Assembly (NCBI RefSeq): GCF_900215515.1
Contig: NZ_OBEI01000005.1
Span: forward strand, 1-64,000
Length of the DNA stretch: 64,000 bases
Reading direction: 5' to 3'
From: Persephonella hydrogeniphila
Lineage (GTDB): Bacteria; Aquificota; Aquificia; Aquificales; Hydrogenothermaceae
Shown here: piece after piece, positions 54,631-63,719 of the stretch
Layout of the letters: each line of letters begins with the position of its first letter
Numbering within the stretch: the first letter of the stretch is position 1
The notes under the pieces: generated by a model
Databases searched by the model: none
The model's input: the letters and a program-made list of their open reading frames with translations, nothing else
What the model was told of the DNA's origin: nothing
Made by a program: the position numbers and the translations under genes

Positions 54631-55407
54631 TCAATAGGAATGAGCCCTTTGTGTTTTTGTATTATTTACACCTATTAAAGCTACAGAGTAGTTGTCAGAT
54701 TTTACCTTTTCAACAGCTTTTATTAAGTTAGAAAAGTTTTCAAAAGGTTCAGGGTACAAAAGATAGTATATCTCATTATCAGATATGTAATCTGATAAAC
54801 CATCTGTACACACAAGATACGCTTCATCTTTCTTTAAGATATCTTCCACTATGTAGGGTCTTTTTCCTGATTTCCAGTCAGAAGCAAAAACATCTCCTAT
54901 CCCAAACTCTACAATATACTTTTCTGGATGATAAAATGCTTCCTCATAACTGATTAGACCTTTATCTATTAAAGATTGTACATAGCTGTGGTCGTGTGAA
55001 ATATAAATCAGTCTGTCTTTTGTGTACTTGTATACTCTACTATCGCCTACATTAAAAATAATACTTTTATTTCCCTCCATAAGAACACCTGCAACTGTAG
55101 TTCCACTCCATATAATTCCAGAAGTTTCAAACTTTTTCTGTATACGGAAAAGAGTTCTATAAACGGCTTCTGGAGAAAAAGGGATACTGCACTTTTTTAA
55201 CATCTGACACACGAAACGGGAAGCTTTTTCACCTTCAGACATTCCTCCCATCCCATCACATACAGCTACCAGCAGACTTTCTTTTTCTACTTTTTTACTG
55301 GCAGGACATTCCATCTTGTTGACCTGAAAGATCTCTCCGTCTATATACATACAATCTTCCTGATTATCTCTCATACCAATATCCATACAGAACAAAATTT
55401 TATACAT
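54631..55407 (-). CDS. PP2C-family protein phosphatase
   Basis: Metal-dependent Ser/Thr phosphatase of 258 residues. Motifs: DIGMRDNQEDCMY (metal Asp), AVCDGMGGMSEGEKAS, SGTTVAGVL, NVGDSRVYKY and VCTDGLSDYISD, in PPM order. The Cys in NQEDC replaces the usual Asn/Ser. I chose ATG 55407 because AAGGAG lies six bases upstream. No kinase partner adjoins it; targets may be an FHA or anti-sigma system elsewhere. Confidence 0.9.
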   Translation of the reverse strand: MYKILFCMDIGMRDNQEDCMYIDGEIFQVNKMECPASKKVEKESLLVAVCDGMGGMSEGEKASRFVCQMLKKCSIPFSPEAVYRTLFRIQKKFETSGIIWSGTTVAGVLMEGNKSIIFNVGDSRVYKYTKDRLIYISHDHSYVQSLIDKGLISYEEAFYHPEKYIVEFGIGDVFASDWKSGKRPYIVEDILKKDEAYLVCTDGLSDYISDNEIYYLLYPEPFENFSNLIKAVEKVKSDNYSVALIGVNNTKTQRAHSY

Positions 55408-55464
55408 AACAACTCCTTGCATAAATTATTAATTTGAATTAAATTTATAGTGGAGGTGTTAAAA

Positions 55465-55647
55465 ATGAAAGTGGAAAATAACGGTATGTCCGTTTACAAA
55501 AGTATTCTTGATATGCAGAAACAGATGGTAGATATGCTTATACAGGAAAATTTGAAAACAGACCAATCACAGCAAACTGGCCAATCTGCACAACAGGAAA
55601 AACCTCAGAGTATTGTAGAAGGAACAAAAGTTTCTATTTATGCCTGA
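55465..55647 (+). CDS. Small Gln-rich protein, function unknown
   Basis: 60 residues from the ATG at 55465, with GGAGG eight bases upstream. An N-terminal helix (VYKSILDMQKQMVDMLIQ) is followed by a Gln/Ser-rich linker and a short end VEGTKVSIYA. It weakly recalls YjfB-like small motility proteins; this is only a guess. It overlaps the end of the convergent GGDEF-EAL gene by 10 bases and is divergent from the PP2C gene. Confidence 0.55.
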   Translation: MKVENNGMSVYKSILDMQKQMVDMLIQENLKTDQSQQTGQSAQQEKPQSIVEGTKVSIYA

Positions 55648-57713
55648 ACCGTCTTTCCTGTTTTTATGATCTCCTCAATTTCATCAGGTAAAACAGGTCT
55701 GCTGAAATAGTATCCCTGTATATAATCACAGCCTATCTCTTTCAGGAATAAAAGCTGTACTCTTTCTTCTACACCTTCAGCTATTGTTTTCAGACCAAGG
55801 GATTTAGCCAGATTAACTATAGACAGAACAAGTATGTTATCATCCTTATCTGTAGGAATATTTTTAATGAAAGCCCTGTCTATCTTTATATAGGAAAGAG
55901 GCATCAGTTTTAAGTAGCTGAGAGAAGAATACCCTGTTCCAAAATCATCTATTGCTATCTCAATCCCAAAATCTGTTAAGCGGCTCAGTACGTCTATCAC
56001 TATATCAGGGAACTTCATTGCTTCACTTTCTGTGATTTCAATCTTTATCTTTTCAGGATTTACACCGGAATCATTCAATATACTTTCCACATTCTGGACA
56101 AAATTCTTATCAAGAAGTTGTTGTATGTCTACATTAACAGAAACAGATATATCTTTAATTCCCCTCTCACTCCATACATTAATCTGTTTACAAACCTCAG
56201 ATAAAACCCAGTATCCAACTTCCCTTATAAGACCTGTTTCTTCTAAGATAGGTATAAATTCAGAAGGGGGAACTTCTCCTAACTCATCATTTTTCATACG
56301 TAGTAGGGCTTCAACAGACACAACTTTTCCAGTTTTTAAACTGGCTATTGGCTGATACACAAGATAAAAATCTCCATTTTCGAGAGATTTCTTAAGTATC
56401 TCTGTAAGTTTAATCCTTTTTTCTTCTTTTAGCCTGAGCTCCTCGTTGAAGATGACAAACATCTTTTTACCTTTTTTCTTTCCATAGTACAGAGCTATAT
56501 CGCTCTCTTTAAGAAAGTCATAAAAGTTAGCTTCTCCTTTTTTTATAGAAACTCCTGCTGTCAGTGTTATATGTATTATCTGCTCATCTATCTGTATATT
56601 TCCTGAAAGCTCATTCATCCAGTTTTCCATCATTTCTTCTACATAAGGTTTGTCCTGACTCTGGAAAAAGACAATAAACTCATCTCCTCCAAGTCTTCCT
56701 ATTACTTTGCCGTTTGCCACAAGGCTTAGTTTTTTTGCGAACTTTTTTAGAAGAATATCTCCAACATCGTGACCGAAGGTATCATTAACCTCTTTAAAGT
56801 TATCAATATCAATAAAAATGAATACATTCCATAAATCTTTATTCTCTGAGAGCAACCTTTTCACTTCCCTTTCCAGACCAAAACGATTTAGAACACCTGT
56901 TAAGTAATCATACTTTATGTACCTATTTAGCCTGTCTACGAGTTGATTTATCACATAGGCAATAAAAGCAAACTCATCTTTTCCTTTCAGGTCTATCTTA
57001 ACATCCAATTCACCCCTTGATATCCTATCAACTTCCTTGATAATAGTATTTACCCGTTCACCGATCATTTTGTTAAAACCGATATACACAAAGATAAAAA
57101 TAACAAATAAGATTCCGAACTGATACAGTATCTTTTTTATTATCTCCGTTTTATGAAGAGAGATAAGCTCATCAAGTCTGTAAGCTATAAAAAGAAATCC
57201 TATCTCCGAAGGCCTTAAATCTTTCTCTTTGTAAGAGAAGAGAATAGGGGCTAAAGCAACAATTTTTCCTTCTTTTTCTAAAACCTTACAGAACAGGGCT
57301 GTTTTCCTGTGGAAATTTTTTACTGCCTGAAAGATATAACTGTAAGAAGCAGGTATTGTTTCTTTTATTACGGTAGAATAGCTTTTCCCGATATATTTTC
57401 TCATGGAAGAAAATATCACTTTTCCGTCTGGGGAAGAAATGAATATGACATCTATATATGGATCAGCAGATATATTTATTAGAGTCCTCTCTATAAATTC
57501 TGTATTGCCCTTCTCTCCTAAATACTCAGTAATTTCCTGAAAAGATGCAGCTGTACTGCATACCTCTTTTAATTTTTCCTGCTTTAGTTTTCTGGTACTT
57601 TCTTTTATTTCCACATATCCTGAGAATACTCCAACCAAAATCAGAACAACAGATATAAAAATTGGAAATACTACCCGTATAGGAAAGATCAGCAGTAGCT
57701 TATCTAAAAACAT
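55638..57713 (-). CDS. Membrane GGDEF-EAL protein coupled to a binding-protein gene
   Basis: 691 residues. Helices at about 11-33 and 195-215 enclose a periplasmic Cache-like sensor (PYIDVIFISSPDGKVIFSS). HAMP follows (about 215-265), then GGDEF (RLGGDEFIVFF intact; DIDNFKEVNDTFGHDVGD) and EAL (VEALLRM, KIEITESEA, AIDDFGTGYSS, QGYYFSRP). Both catalytic signatures are kept. The ATG shares one base with the stop of the upstream binding-protein gene, so the two are made together. The binding protein may load the periplasmic sensor with ligand. Confidence 0.92.
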   Translation of the reverse strand: MFLDKLLLIFPIRVVFPIFISVVLILVGVFSGYVEIKESTRKLKQEKLKEVCSTAASFQEITEYLGEKGNTEFIERTLINISADPYIDVIFISSPDGKVIFSSMRKYIGKSYSTVIKETIPASYSYIFQAVKNFHRKTALFCKVLEKEGKIVALAPILFSYKEKDLRPSEIGFLFIAYRLDELISLHKTEIIKKILYQFGILFVIFIFVYIGFNKMIGERVNTIIKEVDRISRGELDVKIDLKGKDEFAFIAYVINQLVDRLNRYIKYDYLTGVLNRFGLEREVKRLLSENKDLWNVFIFIDIDNFKEVNDTFGHDVGDILLKKFAKKLSLVANGKVIGRLGGDEFIVFFQSQDKPYVEEMMENWMNELSGNIQIDEQIIHITLTAGVSIKKGEANFYDFLKESDIALYYGKKKGKKMFVIFNEELRLKEEKRIKLTEILKKSLENGDFYLVYQPIASLKTGKVVSVEALLRMKNDELGEVPPSEFIPILEETGLIREVGYWVLSEVCKQINVWSERGIKDISVSVNVDIQQLLDKNFVQNVESILNDSGVNPEKIKIEITESEAMKFPDIVIDVLSRLTDFGIEIAIDDFGTGYSSLSYLKLMPLSYIKIDRAFIKNIPTDKDDNILVLSIVNLAKSLGLKTIAEGVEERVQLLFLKEIGCDYIQGYYFSRPVLPDEIEEIIKTGKTVQA

Positions 57714-58657
57714 TACCTTTCTACCGGAATATTTGTGTAAAACAGACTGTCTATATCTATATATTCTTTAGAAATAATTTTTTTCTGTCTCATTATCTTA
57801 AGCAACTTTTTAGCTACTTTTTTGAGTTCAGGTTCACCTGTATCCACAAGCTTTATATTAGTCTTTCTATCAGGTATTATCATCCCTCTGTATGCTTTTT
57901 CTAATTCTTCAGGAGATATATGTTCCCTCTCTGCTATTATTTTTAGAGCTTCTTCTTTCCTGTTTTTCATAAAATCAACAGCCTTGAACCACGAACTGAT
58001 AACAGACTTAACAACATGGGGACTTTTTGTTAAAAAATCCCTTTCTACAACCAAAACATCAACTATTTCCCCCGGTATCTGAGAACTGTCAAATATGATT
58101 TTCCCTCCTTCTCTTAGAAGCTTACTTTTTACAGGCTCAAAAGTCACAACAGCATCAACTTTTCCCTCTTTGAACCATCTGTAATGTTCATCAACCTCAA
58201 GGGGAATAACTTTTACCTGTTTCACAGAAAGACCGTATTTCTCAAGGGCTCTTGTCAGGACATAAGCTCCTAATGCCGTATTTTCTACTCCTATTTTTTT
58301 ACCTTTCAGATCTTTAACAGAGTTTATTCCTTTCCTACCTATTATCACATCTGCTCCGTTAGATATATCCATAACCAGAACAACAACAGGTTCAAAACCG
58401 TAATCTTTCAATAACAGAACCTCATCAAGAGTAAGAGCCGCTCCGTTTATTCTCCTGTTTCTGTAAGCTCTCAATACCTGTGACGCAGATGAGTACTCTA
58501 CAAGATGAACCGGTATATTCTTTAAATACCCCAGCTCTCTGGCAAGATAAAGGGGTTCATATCCCGGCCACACATTTGTACCTATTTTTAGATACTCTTT
58601 ACTGTCAAATATACAAGATGCAGTAATAATAAGTATCAGAATAATAAATTTTTTCAT
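57713..58657 (-). CDS. Orphan substrate-binding lipoprotein (NMT1/SsuA-like)
   Basis: 314 residues. A signal with lipobox ITASC (Cys15) anchors it at the membrane. The mature part has IGTNVWPGYEPLYLARELGY, SASQVLRAYRNRRINGAALT and KKIGVENTALGAYVL, typical of nitrate/sulfonate/taurine/thiamine-precursor binding proteins. No permease or ATPase gene is near. It overlaps its neighbours by one base on each side. Its coupling to a GGDEF-EAL gene suggests a sensory rather than transport role. The ligand cannot be told from sequence. Confidence 0.88.
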   Translation of the reverse strand: MKKFIILILIITASCIFDSKEYLKIGTNVWPGYEPLYLARELGYLKNIPVHLVEYSSASQVLRAYRNRRINGAALTLDEVLLLKDYGFEPVVVLVMDISNGADVIIGRKGINSVKDLKGKKIGVENTALGAYVLTRALEKYGLSVKQVKVIPLEVDEHYRWFKEGKVDAVVTFEPVKSKLLREGGKIIFDSSQIPGEIVDVLVVERDFLTKSPHVVKSVISSWFKAVDFMKNRKEEALKIIAEREHISPEELEKAYRGMIIPDRKTNIKLVDTGEPELKKVAKKLLKIMRQKKIISKEYIDIDSLFYTNIPVER

Positions 58658-58998
58658 TACTGTAAATTCAGTGCTTTCAGTACAATACCAAGTCTGTTTC
58701 TCATTTTGTCTTTTTCTTTCTCTTCATTAAAAAAAGATAGGATCTCGTCAGGGTTTATACTCAGGCTGTCCATCTTCTGTCCTTTCAGTTTTTCAGCCAC
58801 CAGATCAGCTATTGCCATCAATTTTTTACATCTTTTTGATGAAGAAAACTTAATGTCTGTTATCGCTCCGTTTCCTGTTTTCACAAAAAACTCAACTCTG
58901 TGGGTACCTTCCTTTGCAAATCCGAGGGATTTATACTCTTCAGGTTTCTCTTCAACAAAATTTTTTAATCCTTTCTTATGATACTCAGATACTTTCAT
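58657..58998 (-). CDS. IscU/NifU-N-like protein with one conserved Cys
   Basis: 113 residues. The segment GNGAITDIKFSSSKRCKKLMAIADLVAEKLKG is IscU-like in outline (ITD-I-F-...-C then a helix and KG), though most scaffold cysteines are missing: one Cys (about 57) remains. It is not a normal Fe-S scaffold and may be a degenerate or redox-sensing member. It overlaps birA by 4 bases and the binding-protein gene by 1. The family call is tentative. Confidence 0.5.
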   Translation of the reverse strand: MKVSEYHKKGLKNFVEEKPEEYKSLGFAKEGTHRVEFFVKTGNGAITDIKFSSSKRCKKLMAIADLVAEKLKGQKMDSLSINPDEILSFFNEEKEKDKMRNRLGIVLKALNLQ

Positions 58999-59945
58999 TC
59001 TGCTCTCCTTAATGTGATTTCTCCTGAATAAAAATCTTTTATCTTATTATCGGTAAATACCCTTATTCCTCCTGAGGAGTTTAGTCCAACAAGAACTCCT
59101 TCAATCCCTTCATCTACAAGCTTTACTCTTTCTCCCTTCCACAAAAGACTTTTGTCTACTTCTTCAATCACTTTTTTCCTATCAAATTCTTCAACAAGAT
59201 TTTCTATCTCTGATAGTATCTTTCCAAATAAACTTTTCCTGTCATACTCTTTTCCAGTTTCTATTTTCAGAGATGTAGCTGTTTCTTTCAGTTCTTGTAA
59301 ATCTTTTAAGTCATGGTTTATATTTATACCTATACCTGCCACAAGTTTGTATAGATAGTTTCCCTCAAACTCTGTTTCTATAAGAAAACCTGCAAGTTTT
59401 TTATTGTTTAAATAAAGGTCATTAGGCCATTTTATATTAATCTTTAAACCTGTTTCTTTTTCTATTGCTTTTTTTACTCCAACAGGAAAGATAAAAGAAA
59501 AGGTCATAAGCTCATTTATAGGAATATTCCTATTTAGGACTATGGAGAAATAAAGGCCTTTCCCCTCAACAGATAGCCATTTTCTACCTTTCCTGCCTTT
59601 TCCTCCTGTCTGTGTTTCTGCGAGAACTACTGTTCCGTCTTCTAACTCTTCTTTTTTTGCAAATATATTTGTGGAGTTTATCTGTTTGAAAAATATGTAG
59701 TTTTTACCGAGCCACCTTGTTTTCAGGATACTTTCTATCTCTGTACAGAGTAAATAATTTGTTGTTTTTTCTAATCGGTATCCTTTCCTTTCATGTTTTA
59801 TTTTGTAGCCTAAATCTTCAAGTTTTTTTATTCTTTTCCAGACAGCTGTTCTTGAAATTCCAAGAGTGGCAGAGAGTTTTTCTCCAGATACAAGCTCTCC
59901 CCTTATCGCTTCTAAGATCTTCTTATCTATTTTATCAATAATCAT
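58995..59945 (-). CDS. birA: Biotin-[acetyl-CoA-carboxylase] ligase with repressor domain
   Basis: Makes biotinyl-AMP, transfers biotin to carboxylase carriers, and may repress bio genes. The 316 residues have an N-terminal winged helix (LSATLGISRTAVWKRIKKL), the biotinyl-AMP loop GGKGRKGRKWLS, WPNDLYLNNKKLAGFL and a C-terminal SH3-like domain (LLWKGERVKLVDEG). It is the first gene of a four-gene coupled unit ending in a GGDEF-EAL gene. bioF lies 6 kb away. Confidence 0.93.
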   Translation of the reverse strand: MIIDKIDKKILEAIRGELVSGEKLSATLGISRTAVWKRIKKLEDLGYKIKHERKGYRLEKTTNYLLCTEIESILKTRWLGKNYIFFKQINSTNIFAKKEELEDGTVVLAETQTGGKGRKGRKWLSVEGKGLYFSIVLNRNIPINELMTFSFIFPVGVKKAIEKETGLKINIKWPNDLYLNNKKLAGFLIETEFEGNYLYKLVAGIGININHDLKDLQELKETATSLKIETGKEYDRKSLFGKILSEIENLVEEFDRKKVIEEVDKSLLWKGERVKLVDEGIEGVLVGLNSSGGIRVFTDNKIKDFYSGEITLRRAE

Positions 59946-59989: not shown

Positions 59990-61666
59990 TCATTTGCATA
60001 CCACAGCATTTCTTCCCATTTTCTTTGCTGTATAAAGATTTTTATCTGCTTTTTCTAAAAGTTCTTTTATTGTCATACCTTCTTTATACTCCGTCACCCC
60101 TGCACTTACAGTTATCTTTATTCCTTTTTCTTCGCAGAATGTTTTTTCTTCAATTTCTTTTCTGAAGTTTTCTATCTTGTTACACGCATTTTTAAGGTCT
60201 GAAGACGGCATAACCACCACAAACTCTTCTCCCCCGTATCTTGATGTACAGTCGGAACTTCTAAATGCTTTTTTAAATATCTCAGAAAACTGTTTTAAAA
60301 CACAATCCCCTATTAGATGCCCGTATGTATCGTTTATATCTTTAAAGTAATCTAAATCAATTATTGCCACAGAGACAGGAATATTCTGTGTATGGGATTT
60401 CTTAATAGATTTTCTCAGATACTCAAACAGATATTTCCTGTTGTACAGACCTGTGAGAGGATCTGTTAATGCTTTTGTTTTTAGTTCCCTTTTTTCCCTT
60501 TCCATAAATTCGTAATTCAGTTCTCTCTCTAAACTAACAGCAAGGGCATACTTTATATGCTTAAAAAGTAAACTGAGAAACTCTACATCTTTGTCTGATA
60601 GCTTTTTTCCGAAGATATATATATCTCCTATTTTGTCTTTCTCTGTTTCAAGTGTTTCTTTGTAAACATAACTGTCAAAATGAACACTTTCTGTTAAAAA
60701 CTCCTTTTTTAAAGTTTTCCCGTCGTTTATCTCTACAACTAAAATCTCTTTTACAGGAACAGAAGGGGATTTACCTGTGACAACAATTTTTTCAACTGTA
60801 GGTATCTCTTTTTTTATGTTTTCAAACAGGGTCTCAGCGATAATACTAAACTCAGAAGATGATAAAACAGAGCGGTAAACCCTTTTTAGAAGATCATCAA
60901 GTTTATTTAAAGTAAAAACATTACTCTCCTTCTCATCAAGCATATAAAGACCACAATCAAGATTTCTTAAACGCTCGATAATCGGTTTTATCATACCTTT
61001 TTTGATAATACTTCCGTGCTGCGGGGCTATCAGTTCAGGTTCTTTTTCTTCAATTTTATCAAGCGCATGGTTAAGAATTATTCTGCTTGGCATGTAATGT
61101 TTATGAAAGAGCTCAACACCTTCATAGTACTCTTCATCATCCTCTGCAAACAGGAAAAATCTATCTGAAATAGAGCCAAAAATATCGCTTGAAAAAAGTG
61201 TTTTTGTTTTTTTGTCATAGGTACAGAAAGCTCCCGGAAAATGGGCATAAGGTGTAAAAACAAACTCTAACTCTCTACTTTCTGTTTTTAGCCTCCAGTT
61301 ATGCTGGTCTATAAGATAGAAAGGTGTCTTCCACTGGTAATGCTTAAGCAATGTTTTTGTTCTCCAATGGGTTACTACAAATCTTTTTCCTTTTGGAAAA
61401 AGGGATTCAAGTGTAGAGTAGCATCCTACAATATCCGGATCCTGATGGTGCATAATAATATACTTGATATTTCTCAGAGGTATTACCTGAAATATCTTTT
61501 CCAGAACCACAGGGAAAGTGATCATACTTCCCGGGTCAATCAGTACACTGCTTTCTCCATCTCTTATCAGATATACATGGCACTGAAATGGATCATTGGG
61601 AACAACATATCCTACCCAGAAAACATCTTCTGCTATCTCTAAAGGTTTTGTTAAATCTACAGACAT
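59990..61666 (-). CDS. ODP-type diiron metallo-beta-lactamase / GGDEF protein
   Basis: 558 residues. Residues 1-225 are a metallo-beta-lactamase fold of the flavodiiron/ODP type: HHQDPDIVG (73-81), His142 (PYAHFPGAF), Asp161 (SSDIFGS) and His217 (PQHGS) supply diiron ligands. ODP proteins sense or bind O2. A middle region (about 240-390) resembles GAF. The GGDEF domain (from about 395) has LTDPLTGLYNRK, DLDYFKDINDTYGHLIGD and an intact GGEEF. It should therefore make c-di-GMP in response to oxygen; this coupling is inferred. GGAG lies seven bases before the ATG. Confidence 0.88.
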   Translation of the reverse strand: MSVDLTKPLEIAEDVFWVGYVVPNDPFQCHVYLIRDGESSVLIDPGSMITFPVVLEKIFQVIPLRNIKYIIMHHQDPDIVGCYSTLESLFPKGKRFVVTHWRTKTLLKHYQWKTPFYLIDQHNWRLKTESRELEFVFTPYAHFPGAFCTYDKKTKTLFSSDIFGSISDRFFLFAEDDEEYYEGVELFHKHYMPSRIILNHALDKIEEKEPELIAPQHGSIIKKGMIKPIIERLRNLDCGLYMLDEKESNVFTLNKLDDLLKRVYRSVLSSSEFSIIAETLFENIKKEIPTVEKIVVTGKSPSVPVKEILVVEINDGKTLKKEFLTESVHFDSYVYKETLETEKDKIGDIYIFGKKLSDKDVEFLSLLFKHIKYALAVSLERELNYEFMEREKRELKTKALTDPLTGLYNRKYLFEYLRKSIKKSHTQNIPVSVAIIDLDYFKDINDTYGHLIGDCVLKQFSEIFKKAFRSSDCTSRYGGEEFVVVMPSSDLKNACNKIENFRKEIEEKTFCEEKGIKITVSAGVTEYKEGMTIKELLEKADKNLYTAKKMGRNAVVCK

Positions 61667-61688: not shown

Positions 61689-63719
61689 TTAGATAAATGC
61701 TTTTAGATTTTGCTTTTCTATAATAAGCTCTTCAATTTTCTTAGGTTTTGACAGGTAATAACCCTGTGCATTTTTGATTCCTACCTCTCCTAATACTTCC
61801 AAAATAGAATCGTTTTCTACAAATTCTGCAACAGTTTCAACACCAAGATTTTGAGACATTGAAGAGATTGCCTTTACTACCTTTTTGATAAACTTTCTAT
61901 GTGCAATCTCCTTTATTAAGGTTCCATCTATCTTAACCACATCCAGTATTCCTTTCTCTGCAAGGTCTGCCACAACTCTTAAAGAAGAATACCCTGTTCC
62001 AAAATCATCTATTGCTATATGAATTTTTTTATTTTCCATATGTATATCTTTTAATATAGATATATCCTCTATAAGCCTTTGTTCCGTTATCTCAAATGTG
62101 ATATAAAAATCTTTCATGCTGTCTAAAAATACAGATAAATTCTCCAGAAACTCTTTTGAAGTAAGAGACTCAGAACTTATATTCAAAAACAGGCTGTCTG
62201 ATACCTTTTTTATAAAACCTTTTTTCTCCAAAACTTTTTCCAGAACAGTACTATCTAACTGACTTATTAGACCAAAGTCATATATGAGGTCTATAAAAAC
62301 ACCTGCTGGTATTAGTTTGTCCTCACTATCTTTTATTCTGGCAAGCACCTCAAGATGTTTAATCTGTTTACTGACAACGTCGTATATAGGCTGGAAGACA
62401 ACATCTACTTCTTTTTTATCTAACTTTGATTTTATATACGCACTGTCCCTGTATATCTTATTCAGCCATTGACGTATCTCTTCTTTGTCTTCCTCGCTCA
62501 CAACTATATATACGCTGTTTGATGTACTTTTAGCCTTTTCTTTCAAGTGGTGCAGTATCTTTACAAGATCTTCGTATGTATTCTCTGAATATTTATCAAG
62601 TTCCATAGCAGATATTGTCACTTTTATATCTGTTGAATGGCCGTTAAGCCTGTAACTTTTTTCTACAAGTTTTTTTATATCCTGAACTGTTTTTTCCAAT
62701 TTTTTATTATCAATATCAACAGCAAACATATAAAAATTTGCTGTTGAACCTTTTACATATAAAAAGTTTTTCCTCTTATCCTTTAAATACTCGTGAAGAG
62801 TATTATCTATCTGCTTTAGGATTTTGTTAACCTTACTTTCAGAGTAAATCTTGTTTAAACCCCTCAGATTCTTTACATCTATAAGGAATAAAATACCTCT
62901 ATCAAATATCTCCTCCATATACTTAGTCAATTTAAAAAGATTCGTTTCTGCATCTGCGTAAGTTGAAAAGTACAGCTCAGATAGGACTTTCGCCAGCTTA
63001 AAGATGTTGTTTGAGAACTCTTTAAAGGCAATATACGCGTCTTTATACTTCCGGTTCATATAAAAGACAAAAAAAGAGTTAGCCATTTCATGAATTATAG
63101 AGTGGAGATTTTCTATATACCTGCATAGATTTGCATCCATACAGGCCATTATACTTTCAGGATAGAAAAGGTACTTTTGAAAATCACAGGATTTTGCATC
63201 TTCAAGGGGAAATTCATCTAACTTATCCTCTTTTATCGCCTTTACAATTTTCTTTATATAGGGGATGTGTGCTTTATACAGTAAAAATTCTTTAAAAACC
63301 GAATTCTCTATATTTTCTAACTGGTATATCTCATTTTTAATATACTCTTTTGCTATTATATTCTCTAACTGTTCTATATACTCCTTCAGCTGTAATAAAA
63401 ACTCTTTTGAGTTTATCTCTTTTTCAATAGAAACCCGTTCTAACAGTCTTGTTTTTATAAGTTCTATATTACGGGAAACTATTATGTAAGGAATCTCCAT
63501 CCTATGGTAAAGCTGCTTTATTTTTTCTCTATTAAGCTGTGAACTTTCTGGGAAACTTTTGAGATACTCTGTGATAAGATCTTTCTGCTCGTCAATTAGC
63601 TGTTTTAGAAGTTTTTTATTTTTTATAAAACTTGCGGTTTTATCTTCATTCAGAATATCCTGTTCTACTTCATCAAATACTTTAGGTAAAATCTCTTCAA
63701 GCACCTGTATATACCTCAA
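61689..63719 (-). CDS. CZB-type zinc sensor / degenerate GGDEF / EAL protein
   Basis: 676 residues, soluble. A helical N-terminus (1-140) precedes a segment with His151, Cys178 (SCDFQKYLF), His206 and His210 (LHSIIHEMA), the 3His-1Cys zinc pattern of CZB domains. The GGDEF domain (about 275-410) has lost its motif: VKGSTANFYMF stands in its place. The EAL domain keeps Glu in HLEVLARIKD (EVL), EITEQR, AIDDFGTGYSS and QGYYLSKP, so phosphodiesterase activity is possible. The start is doubtful: TTG 63719 has GGAG only one base upstream, while GTG 63704 has GAGG nine bases away. Confidence 0.82.
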   Translation of the reverse strand: MRYIQVLEEILPKVFDEVEQDILNEDKTASFIKNKKLLKQLIDEQKDLITEYLKSFPESSQLNREKIKQLYHRMEIPYIIVSRNIELIKTRLLERVSIEKEINSKEFLLQLKEYIEQLENIIAKEYIKNEIYQLENIENSVFKEFLLYKAHIPYIKKIVKAIKEDKLDEFPLEDAKSCDFQKYLFYPESIMACMDANLCRYIENLHSIIHEMANSFFVFYMNRKYKDAYIAFKEFSNNIFKLAKVLSELYFSTYADAETNLFKLTKYMEEIFDRGILFLIDVKNLRGLNKIYSESKVNKILKQIDNTLHEYLKDKRKNFLYVKGSTANFYMFAVDIDNKKLEKTVQDIKKLVEKSYRLNGHSTDIKVTISAMELDKYSENTYEDLVKILHHLKEKAKSTSNSVYIVVSEEDKEEIRQWLNKIYRDSAYIKSKLDKKEVDVVFQPIYDVVSKQIKHLEVLARIKDSEDKLIPAGVFIDLIYDFGLISQLDSTVLEKVLEKKGFIKKVSDSLFLNISSESLTSKEFLENLSVFLDSMKDFYITFEITEQRLIEDISILKDIHMENKKIHIAIDDFGTGYSSLRVVADLAEKGILDVVKIDGTLIKEIAHRKFIKKVVKAISSMSQNLGVETVAEFVENDSILEVLGEVGIKNAQGYYLSKPKKIEELIIEKQNLKAFI

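Follow-up and report, generated by a model that had tools for sequence, protein, structure and literature searches.

The stretch examined here, hereafter the window, comprises positions 1 to 64,000 (64,000 nucleotides, nt) of contig NZ_OBEI01000005.1 from Persephonella hydrogeniphila (assembly GCF_900215515.1; 19 contigs, 2.0 Mb), and all coordinates without a locus label refer to it. Four overlapping genes lie together on one strand, encoding a biotin ligase/repressor (BirA), an IscU-like protein, a solute-binding protein (SBP) and a membrane receptor with GGDEF and EAL domains (Table 1); the pair formed by the last two is our subject. The genes meet at ATGA (birA and the IscU-like gene, 4 nt), TAATG (IscU-like gene and SBP, 1 nt) and again TAATG (SBP and receptor, 1 nt). 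An earlier sequence-only reading had described these open reading frames (ORFs), and their coordinates, minus-strand orientation and overlaps are confirmed. Pfam agrees with its domain calls for all four genes, NifU_N being only a weak match below the cut-off. The IscU-like protein does possess the single cysteine that had been noted, where an iron-sulfur (Fe-S) scaffold has three cluster-ligand cysteines.

Table 1. Features of the SBP-receptor locus in the window (aa, amino acids; AF2, AlphaFold2; pLDDT, predicted local distance difference test).
Feature	Position	Strand	Description
BirA, bifunctional biotin ligase/repressor	58995-59945	-	316 aa; Pfam HTH_11 + BPL_LplA_LipB + BPL_C
IscU/NifU_N-like protein, single Cys (SSKRCKKLMAIAD)	58657-58998	-	113 aa; NifU_N below cut-off
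NMT1-type solute-binding lipoprotein (SBP), proposed sensory subunit	57713-58657	-	314 aa; NMT1_2 2e-22, NMT1 1.4e-19
Lipobox Cys15 of SBP	58613-58615	-	Cys in 92% of 78 sensory SBPs
D97-x-S99-x-G101-x-D103 motif of SBP	58349-58369	-	D 91%, S 99%, G 99%, D 99% in sensory SBPs
SBP Asp200, aligned with TauA Asp205 (amine contact)	58058-58060	-	D in 99% of sensory SBPs
Membrane receptor, Cache-like sensor + HAMP + GGDEF + EAL	55638-57713	-	691 aa; Pfam HAMP, GGDEF, EAL
Periplasmic sensor domain, single-Cache fold, ~residues 34-190	57144-57614	-	AF2 pLDDT 94.8; no Pfam family
HAMP linker, residues 216-263	56925-57068	-	Pfam
GGDEF domain, motif intact at residue 342, RxxD inhibitory site absent	56463-56915	-	Pfam + alignment
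EAL domain, EALLR at 468	55695-56399	-	Pfam + alignment

Pairing of this kind of SBP with a receptor is widespread. A scan of ~85,000 genomes with an SBP alignment (A1), in which loci were chosen by SBP similarity alone, yielded 337 confirmed SBP relatives, and the best-scoring 80 loci were analysed. These belong to Pseudomonadota, Nitrospirota, Nitrospinota, Cyanobacteriota, Thermodesulfobacteriota, Campylobacterota, Acidobacteriota, Myxococcota, Planctomycetota, Gemmatimonadota, Verrucomicrobiota, Bdellovibrionota, Lentisphaerota and Aquificota. Three end at a contig edge, leaving 77 with a downstream ORF, and Pfam was run on 20 of the downstream proteins. The arrangement typical of SBP-dependent transmembrane receptor systems, an SBP gene beside the gene for a receptor with a periplasmic sensor, is found at 72 of these 77 loci; 33 of the receptors are GGDEF-EAL proteins, 5 carry GGDEF and 34 are histidine kinases, 24 of them with a receiver domain. 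At the remaining five, the ORF is cut by a contig end (L102, L126, L143), contains HAMP and PAS domains with no recognised output (L079) or is unclear (L077). The two genes overlap by exactly 4 nt at 41 of the 77 loci and lie within 30 nt of each other at most others. Permease matches within 5 kb of the SBP are absent from all 80 loci, ATPase matches nearby number four (weak to moderate, 4-5 kb away), and the pair has no recurring metabolic neighbours, only response regulators and chance genes. An SBP-sensor pair with interchangeable outputs in at least a dozen phyla seems to be undescribed; literature searches for NMT1-type SBPs with GGDEF or kinase receptors returned no described system, their coverage being incomplete and absence unproven.

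The receptors are tied together by their sensors. The ~205 aa preceding HAMP are homologous between kinase-type and GGDEF-type receptors in cross-searches with hidden Markov models (HMMs): the kinase-sensor HMM matches 37 of 39 GGDEF sensors, including that of the window receptor (E 1.6e-31), and the GGDEF-sensor HMM matches 34 of 34 kinase sensors. In its AF2 model, the window sensor has a small mixed sheet with two long helices packed about it, with PDB matches to the sensor domains of WalK, CitA and DctB, and the sensor is predicted to be a single Cache-type domain. Pfam finds no Cache family in it, only the HAMP that follows, and the Cache matches among 75 sensors are all weak (sCache_3_2 in three, dCache_1 in one, CHASE4 in one). 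A PhnD-like N-terminus appears to stand in place of the Cache domain in two receptors encoded beside an NMT1-type SBP (L148:1529-5383 and L151:1427-3736).

On the SBP tree, one branch (Shimodaira-Hasegawa-like approximate likelihood ratio test, SH-aLRT, 94-96) parts the sensory SBPs from 12 transporter SBPs; the exceptions are L176 and L178, very distant sensory SBPs placed outside the sensory group. This tree implies 14 or more changes of output class, and a topology that unites all kinase-linked SBPs in one clade is rejected (approximately unbiased test, p-AU 1.4e-5), so outputs have been swapped. SBP distances correlate with sensor distances (r 0.54 in GGDEF-EAL receptors, 0.62 in kinases) more strongly than with distances of the output domains (EAL 0.41, GGDEF 0.27, HATPase 0.09). 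Among 112 genomes of the order to which P. hydrogeniphila belongs, 17 have an SBP match, and strong sensor-profile matches that span the sensor domain occur only in genomes with the SBP, save G066, where a contig end truncates the SBP, and G067. Taken together, sensor homology, output swaps, co-variation and order-wide co-occurrence indicate that SBP and sensor form one input module to which an exchangeable output is attached.

The SBP is the sole full NMT1 match in its genome, and its lipobox suggests lipidation at Cys15. Its AF2 model (pLDDT 94.5) has TauA as best PDB match (template modelling (TM) score 0.83, 18% identity). In TauA, the amine of taurine is bound by Glu106 and Asp205, and Glu106 is needed (PMC6906117). 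SBP residues D103 and D200, each 99% conserved, align with these two acids, and D97 and E125 are likewise acidic and conserved. TauA Gln30 has Asn28 or Trp30 as its counterpart, two alignments of this strand being possible. The SBP shares with TauA its fold and the equivalents of Glu106 and Asp205, but it is only ~18% identical, lacks a sulfonate-type glutamine in the Gln30 region and, unlike TauA and SsuA, has no transporter. The D-x-S-x-G-x-D motif, of which TauA and SsuA have only the last acid, is common to guanidine-, hut- and Ideonella-type transporter SBPs; transporter SBPs sharing it are encoded beside a GdmH-like gene (L037, L038), Enterococcus urea-carboxylase genes and a hut cluster. 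The best solved relative of the GdmH-like enzyme is 7esr, which we take to be the Synechocystis guanidine hydrolase. Urea carboxylases of the type in question have been discussed as guanidine carboxylases (PMC12186494). The SBPs of guanidine/urea-carboxylase ATP-binding cassette (ABC) transporters (TIGR03427) and those beside GdmH-like genes are the nearest relatives of known type. These relatives share the motif and Asp200 with the sensory SBPs but come with a permease and an ATPase, and the sensory SBPs differ from them at positions 33, 34, 78, 130, 131 and 158. TIGR03427 is matched by all 76 SBPs of alignment A3, and the window SBP scores below the curated cut-offs of SsuA_fam (129.8 against 163.5 bits), the taurine family (60.2 against 304.25) and TIGR03427 itself (108.2 against 333.9).

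Judged from these residues, the ligand is most likely a small nitrogenous cation (an amine, amidine or guanidinium), with guanidine as just one candidate. A nitrate, sulfonate or thiamine-precursor binder is not favoured: the pocket acids match the amine contacts of TauA, and the motif, but for its last acid, is missing from TauA and SsuA. Guanidine riboswitches were found neither in the window nor at seven related loci, and the P. hydrogeniphila genome yielded no GdmH homolog, so guanidine has no metabolic support there. It is a rather unlikely proposal that an undescribed cassette spanning many phyla, made up of an orphan NMT1-type lipoprotein SBP and its dedicated Cache-like sensor, detects extracellular guanidinium- or amidine-type nitrogen compounds and drives cyclic di-GMP (c-di-GMP) enzymes or histidine kinases. 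If true, guanidine-like compounds would act as signals outside cells in addition to being riboswitch ligands. An SBP-permease-ATPase set lies beside a GdmH-like gene in another Aquificota genus (L037:4908-7008), with no detectable guanidine riboswitch.

The receptor retains what a bifunctional GGDEF-EAL enzyme needs, an intact GGDEF motif and the EAL catalytic residues; E468, N527, E559, D589, D590, K610, E646 and Q666 do not vary among the EAL domains of 11 Aquificota, and both synthesis and breakdown of c-di-GMP are plausible from its sequence. SBP and receptor very probably constitute a sensing unit in which an SBP for nitrogenous cations docks on the sensor to steer c-di-GMP. Gene adjacency and overlap across phyla, the shared sensor, SBP-sensor co-variation, the absence of permeases and the conserved acidic pocket residues carry this reading, and they give good support to the earlier suggestion that the SBP is the sensory subunit of a c-di-GMP switch. 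Physical docking, the ligand class and the direction of the c-di-GMP change are what we infer. The lipoprotein would bind a small extracellular ligand on the periplasmic side and, either ligand-loaded or through its open or closed state, would dock on the Cache-like sensor domain. The signal would then pass through the second transmembrane segment (TM2) and HAMP and shift the balance between c-di-GMP synthesis and breakdown. In other bacteria, the same kind of input module is joined to histidine kinase outputs.

The sequence-only reading had treated all four genes as a functional unit and had raised a link to biotin or sulfur metabolism. A single pathway that ties biotin or Fe-S/sulfur status to c-di-GMP would agree with the four-gene order, which is conserved with its overlaps in the genus (L024-L028 and L030; disrupted in L029), and the order also occurs in the sister genus g7 (L031, genome G080). 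In G080, however, the first three genes are spaced by 135 and 65 nt. SBP and receptor occur without birA or the IscU-like gene in g2 (L032, L033), g6 (L035, where the receptor is frame-shifted) and family f2 (L034), and conversely four genus members (G082, G088, G091, G092) have birA and the IscU-like gene with no SBP match and no pair. The single-cysteine NifU_N-like family (SSKRCKKLMAIAD) is present in 62 of the 112 genomes of the order, and its neighbours vary, including an SNF2 helicase, dUTPase_2, a tRNA synthetase and other genes. Decaying SBPs are seen as a pseudogene with five stops in G079 (L036:4985-5731) and a 48-residue remnant in G065. The pair thus moves, and disappears, as a unit of its own, independently of birA and the IscU-like gene. 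The gene-order check proposed earlier therefore comes out in favour of SBP and receptor, whose order is conserved, and not of the four genes, whose order is limited to the genus and one sister genus; with birA and the IscU-like gene accompanying the pair only there, the biotin or sulfur link is not supported either. One pathway for all four genes is extremely unlikely, and a four-gene system with a biotin or sulfur role is rejected on comparative gene order. The functional unit is, on gene order, predicted to be the SBP and its GGDEF-EAL receptor, with birA and the IscU-like gene as chance neighbours.

Two further explanations concern the pair itself. The SBP could feed a permease encoded elsewhere, with the receptor gene regulating that uptake, and homologs ~29-36% identical are indeed genuine transporter SBPs beside a permease and an ATPase (L037-L039, L154-L156, L181-L183). 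Such pairing, which the sequence-only reading had named as grounds for refutation, is confined to homologs outside the sensory group. A permease and ATPase partnership like that of SsuA, TauA and TIGR03427 SBPs was found neither at the 80 loci nor in the P. hydrogeniphila genome. The absence of both from the neighbourhood, claimed earlier, is upheld and extends genome-wide for SsuC/TauC-type permeases, none of which is among the five BPD_transp_1 permeases of that genome. These five read from sequence as Opp/Dpp, Mod and Pst type, each of which normally has its own class of SBP, and a transport role is very unlikely. Alternatively, co-translation could be all that links SBP and receptor: the Cache domain would sense its own ligand, and the SBP would scavenge or buffer a solute. 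Cache domains usually do take small molecules directly, but the pair persists in more than ten phyla among differing flanking genes and with no recurrent metabolic partner, there is no transport partner to feed, and SBP distances track those of the sensor more closely than those of the output; this explanation is improbable. Several points nonetheless weigh against a dedicated sensing unit. The 80 loci are the top of 337 relatives, and the association rate holds for these best 80, of which L077 has no recognisable receptor. Some of the co-variation of SBP and sensor stems from common ancestry, and length and rate are not equal among the domains compared. The mapping onto TauA residues is a sequence alignment at ~18% identity. 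The L148 and L151 receptors lack the shared sensor, apparently carrying a PhnD-type domain instead, and G067 has a receptor with only a possible SBP scar (the SBP being deleted or mis-assembled). The Cache-like domain could also take up a ligand itself.

The surroundings of the four genes contain further genes of note. Two more c-di-GMP genes immediately precede birA on its strand: one encodes a fusion of GGDEF with an ODP-type domain of the di-iron beta-lactamase fold (59990-61666, minus strand, 44 nt upstream of birA), and the other, 22 nt further upstream, an EAL protein with a sub-cut-off GGDEF match and a weak CZB match (61689-63719, minus strand). At L025, a molybdopterin oxidoreductase and an MFS transporter occupy the position upstream of birA. 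A PP2C-type phosphatase gene (54631-55422, same strand) follows the SBP-receptor pair and is kept in the genus and in g7. The four genus members without the pair have an ORF of 276-278 aa between the birA and IscU-like genes and the PP2C gene, a GH114 glycoside hydrolase in G082, the one checked. At L046:2082-2912, a GH114 (polygalactosaminidase-type) gene occupies the position that the SBP-receptor pair has in other genus members, a possible link to exopolysaccharide.

The principle of an SBP acting through a receptor has precedent. SBPs are known to activate receptors by a general mechanism in which the ligand-loaded SBP stimulates the receptor's periplasmic domain (PMC9602780), and the stimulation proposed here would be analogous to that in BctC-BctE, SBP-chemoreceptor and SBP-kinase pairs. 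The SBP of BctC-BctE also serves a transporter, whereas the search for a transporter partner came up empty here, and a single SBP family is coupled to outputs of several types. In Vibrio cholerae, the periplasmic binding protein NspS is the sensory partner of MbaA, a membrane GGDEF-EAL protein (PMC8967002, PMC9993111) with the motifs SGDEF and EVL (PMC8967002). NspS-MbaA has also been described in Sinorhizobium meliloti. As in that system, the SBP here is paired with a membrane GGDEF-EAL protein. Unlike NspS, a PotD-type polyamine binder, it is a predicted lipoprotein of the NMT1 type (best Pfam matches NMT1_2 and NMT1, no SBP_bac_8-type match); unlike MbaA, the receptor has intact GGDEF and EAL motifs; and the SBP-sensor family couples to histidine kinases as well. 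The earlier statement that no system with this gene set is described is literally true, but it overlooked the precedent of NspS-MbaA. In a census of c-di-GMP sensing, SBP_bac_3 alone within the binding-protein clan has been studied in c-di-GMP networks (PMC8846402). The NMT1-type SBP family, its sensor and its breadth of phyla appear to be undescribed.

SBPs of this kind are annotated as ABC transporter subunits, as in the plasmid matches, and a whole group of them appears to consist of signalling subunits without a transporter. If confirmed, the pair would provide a route from ligand to c-di-GMP in heat-loving Aquificota, Comamonas, Marinobacterium and others and a kinase route in cyanobacteria and Nitrospirota, and the annotations would be corrected. 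It would also offer a naturally modular sensor, with kinases or cyclases driven from a single input.

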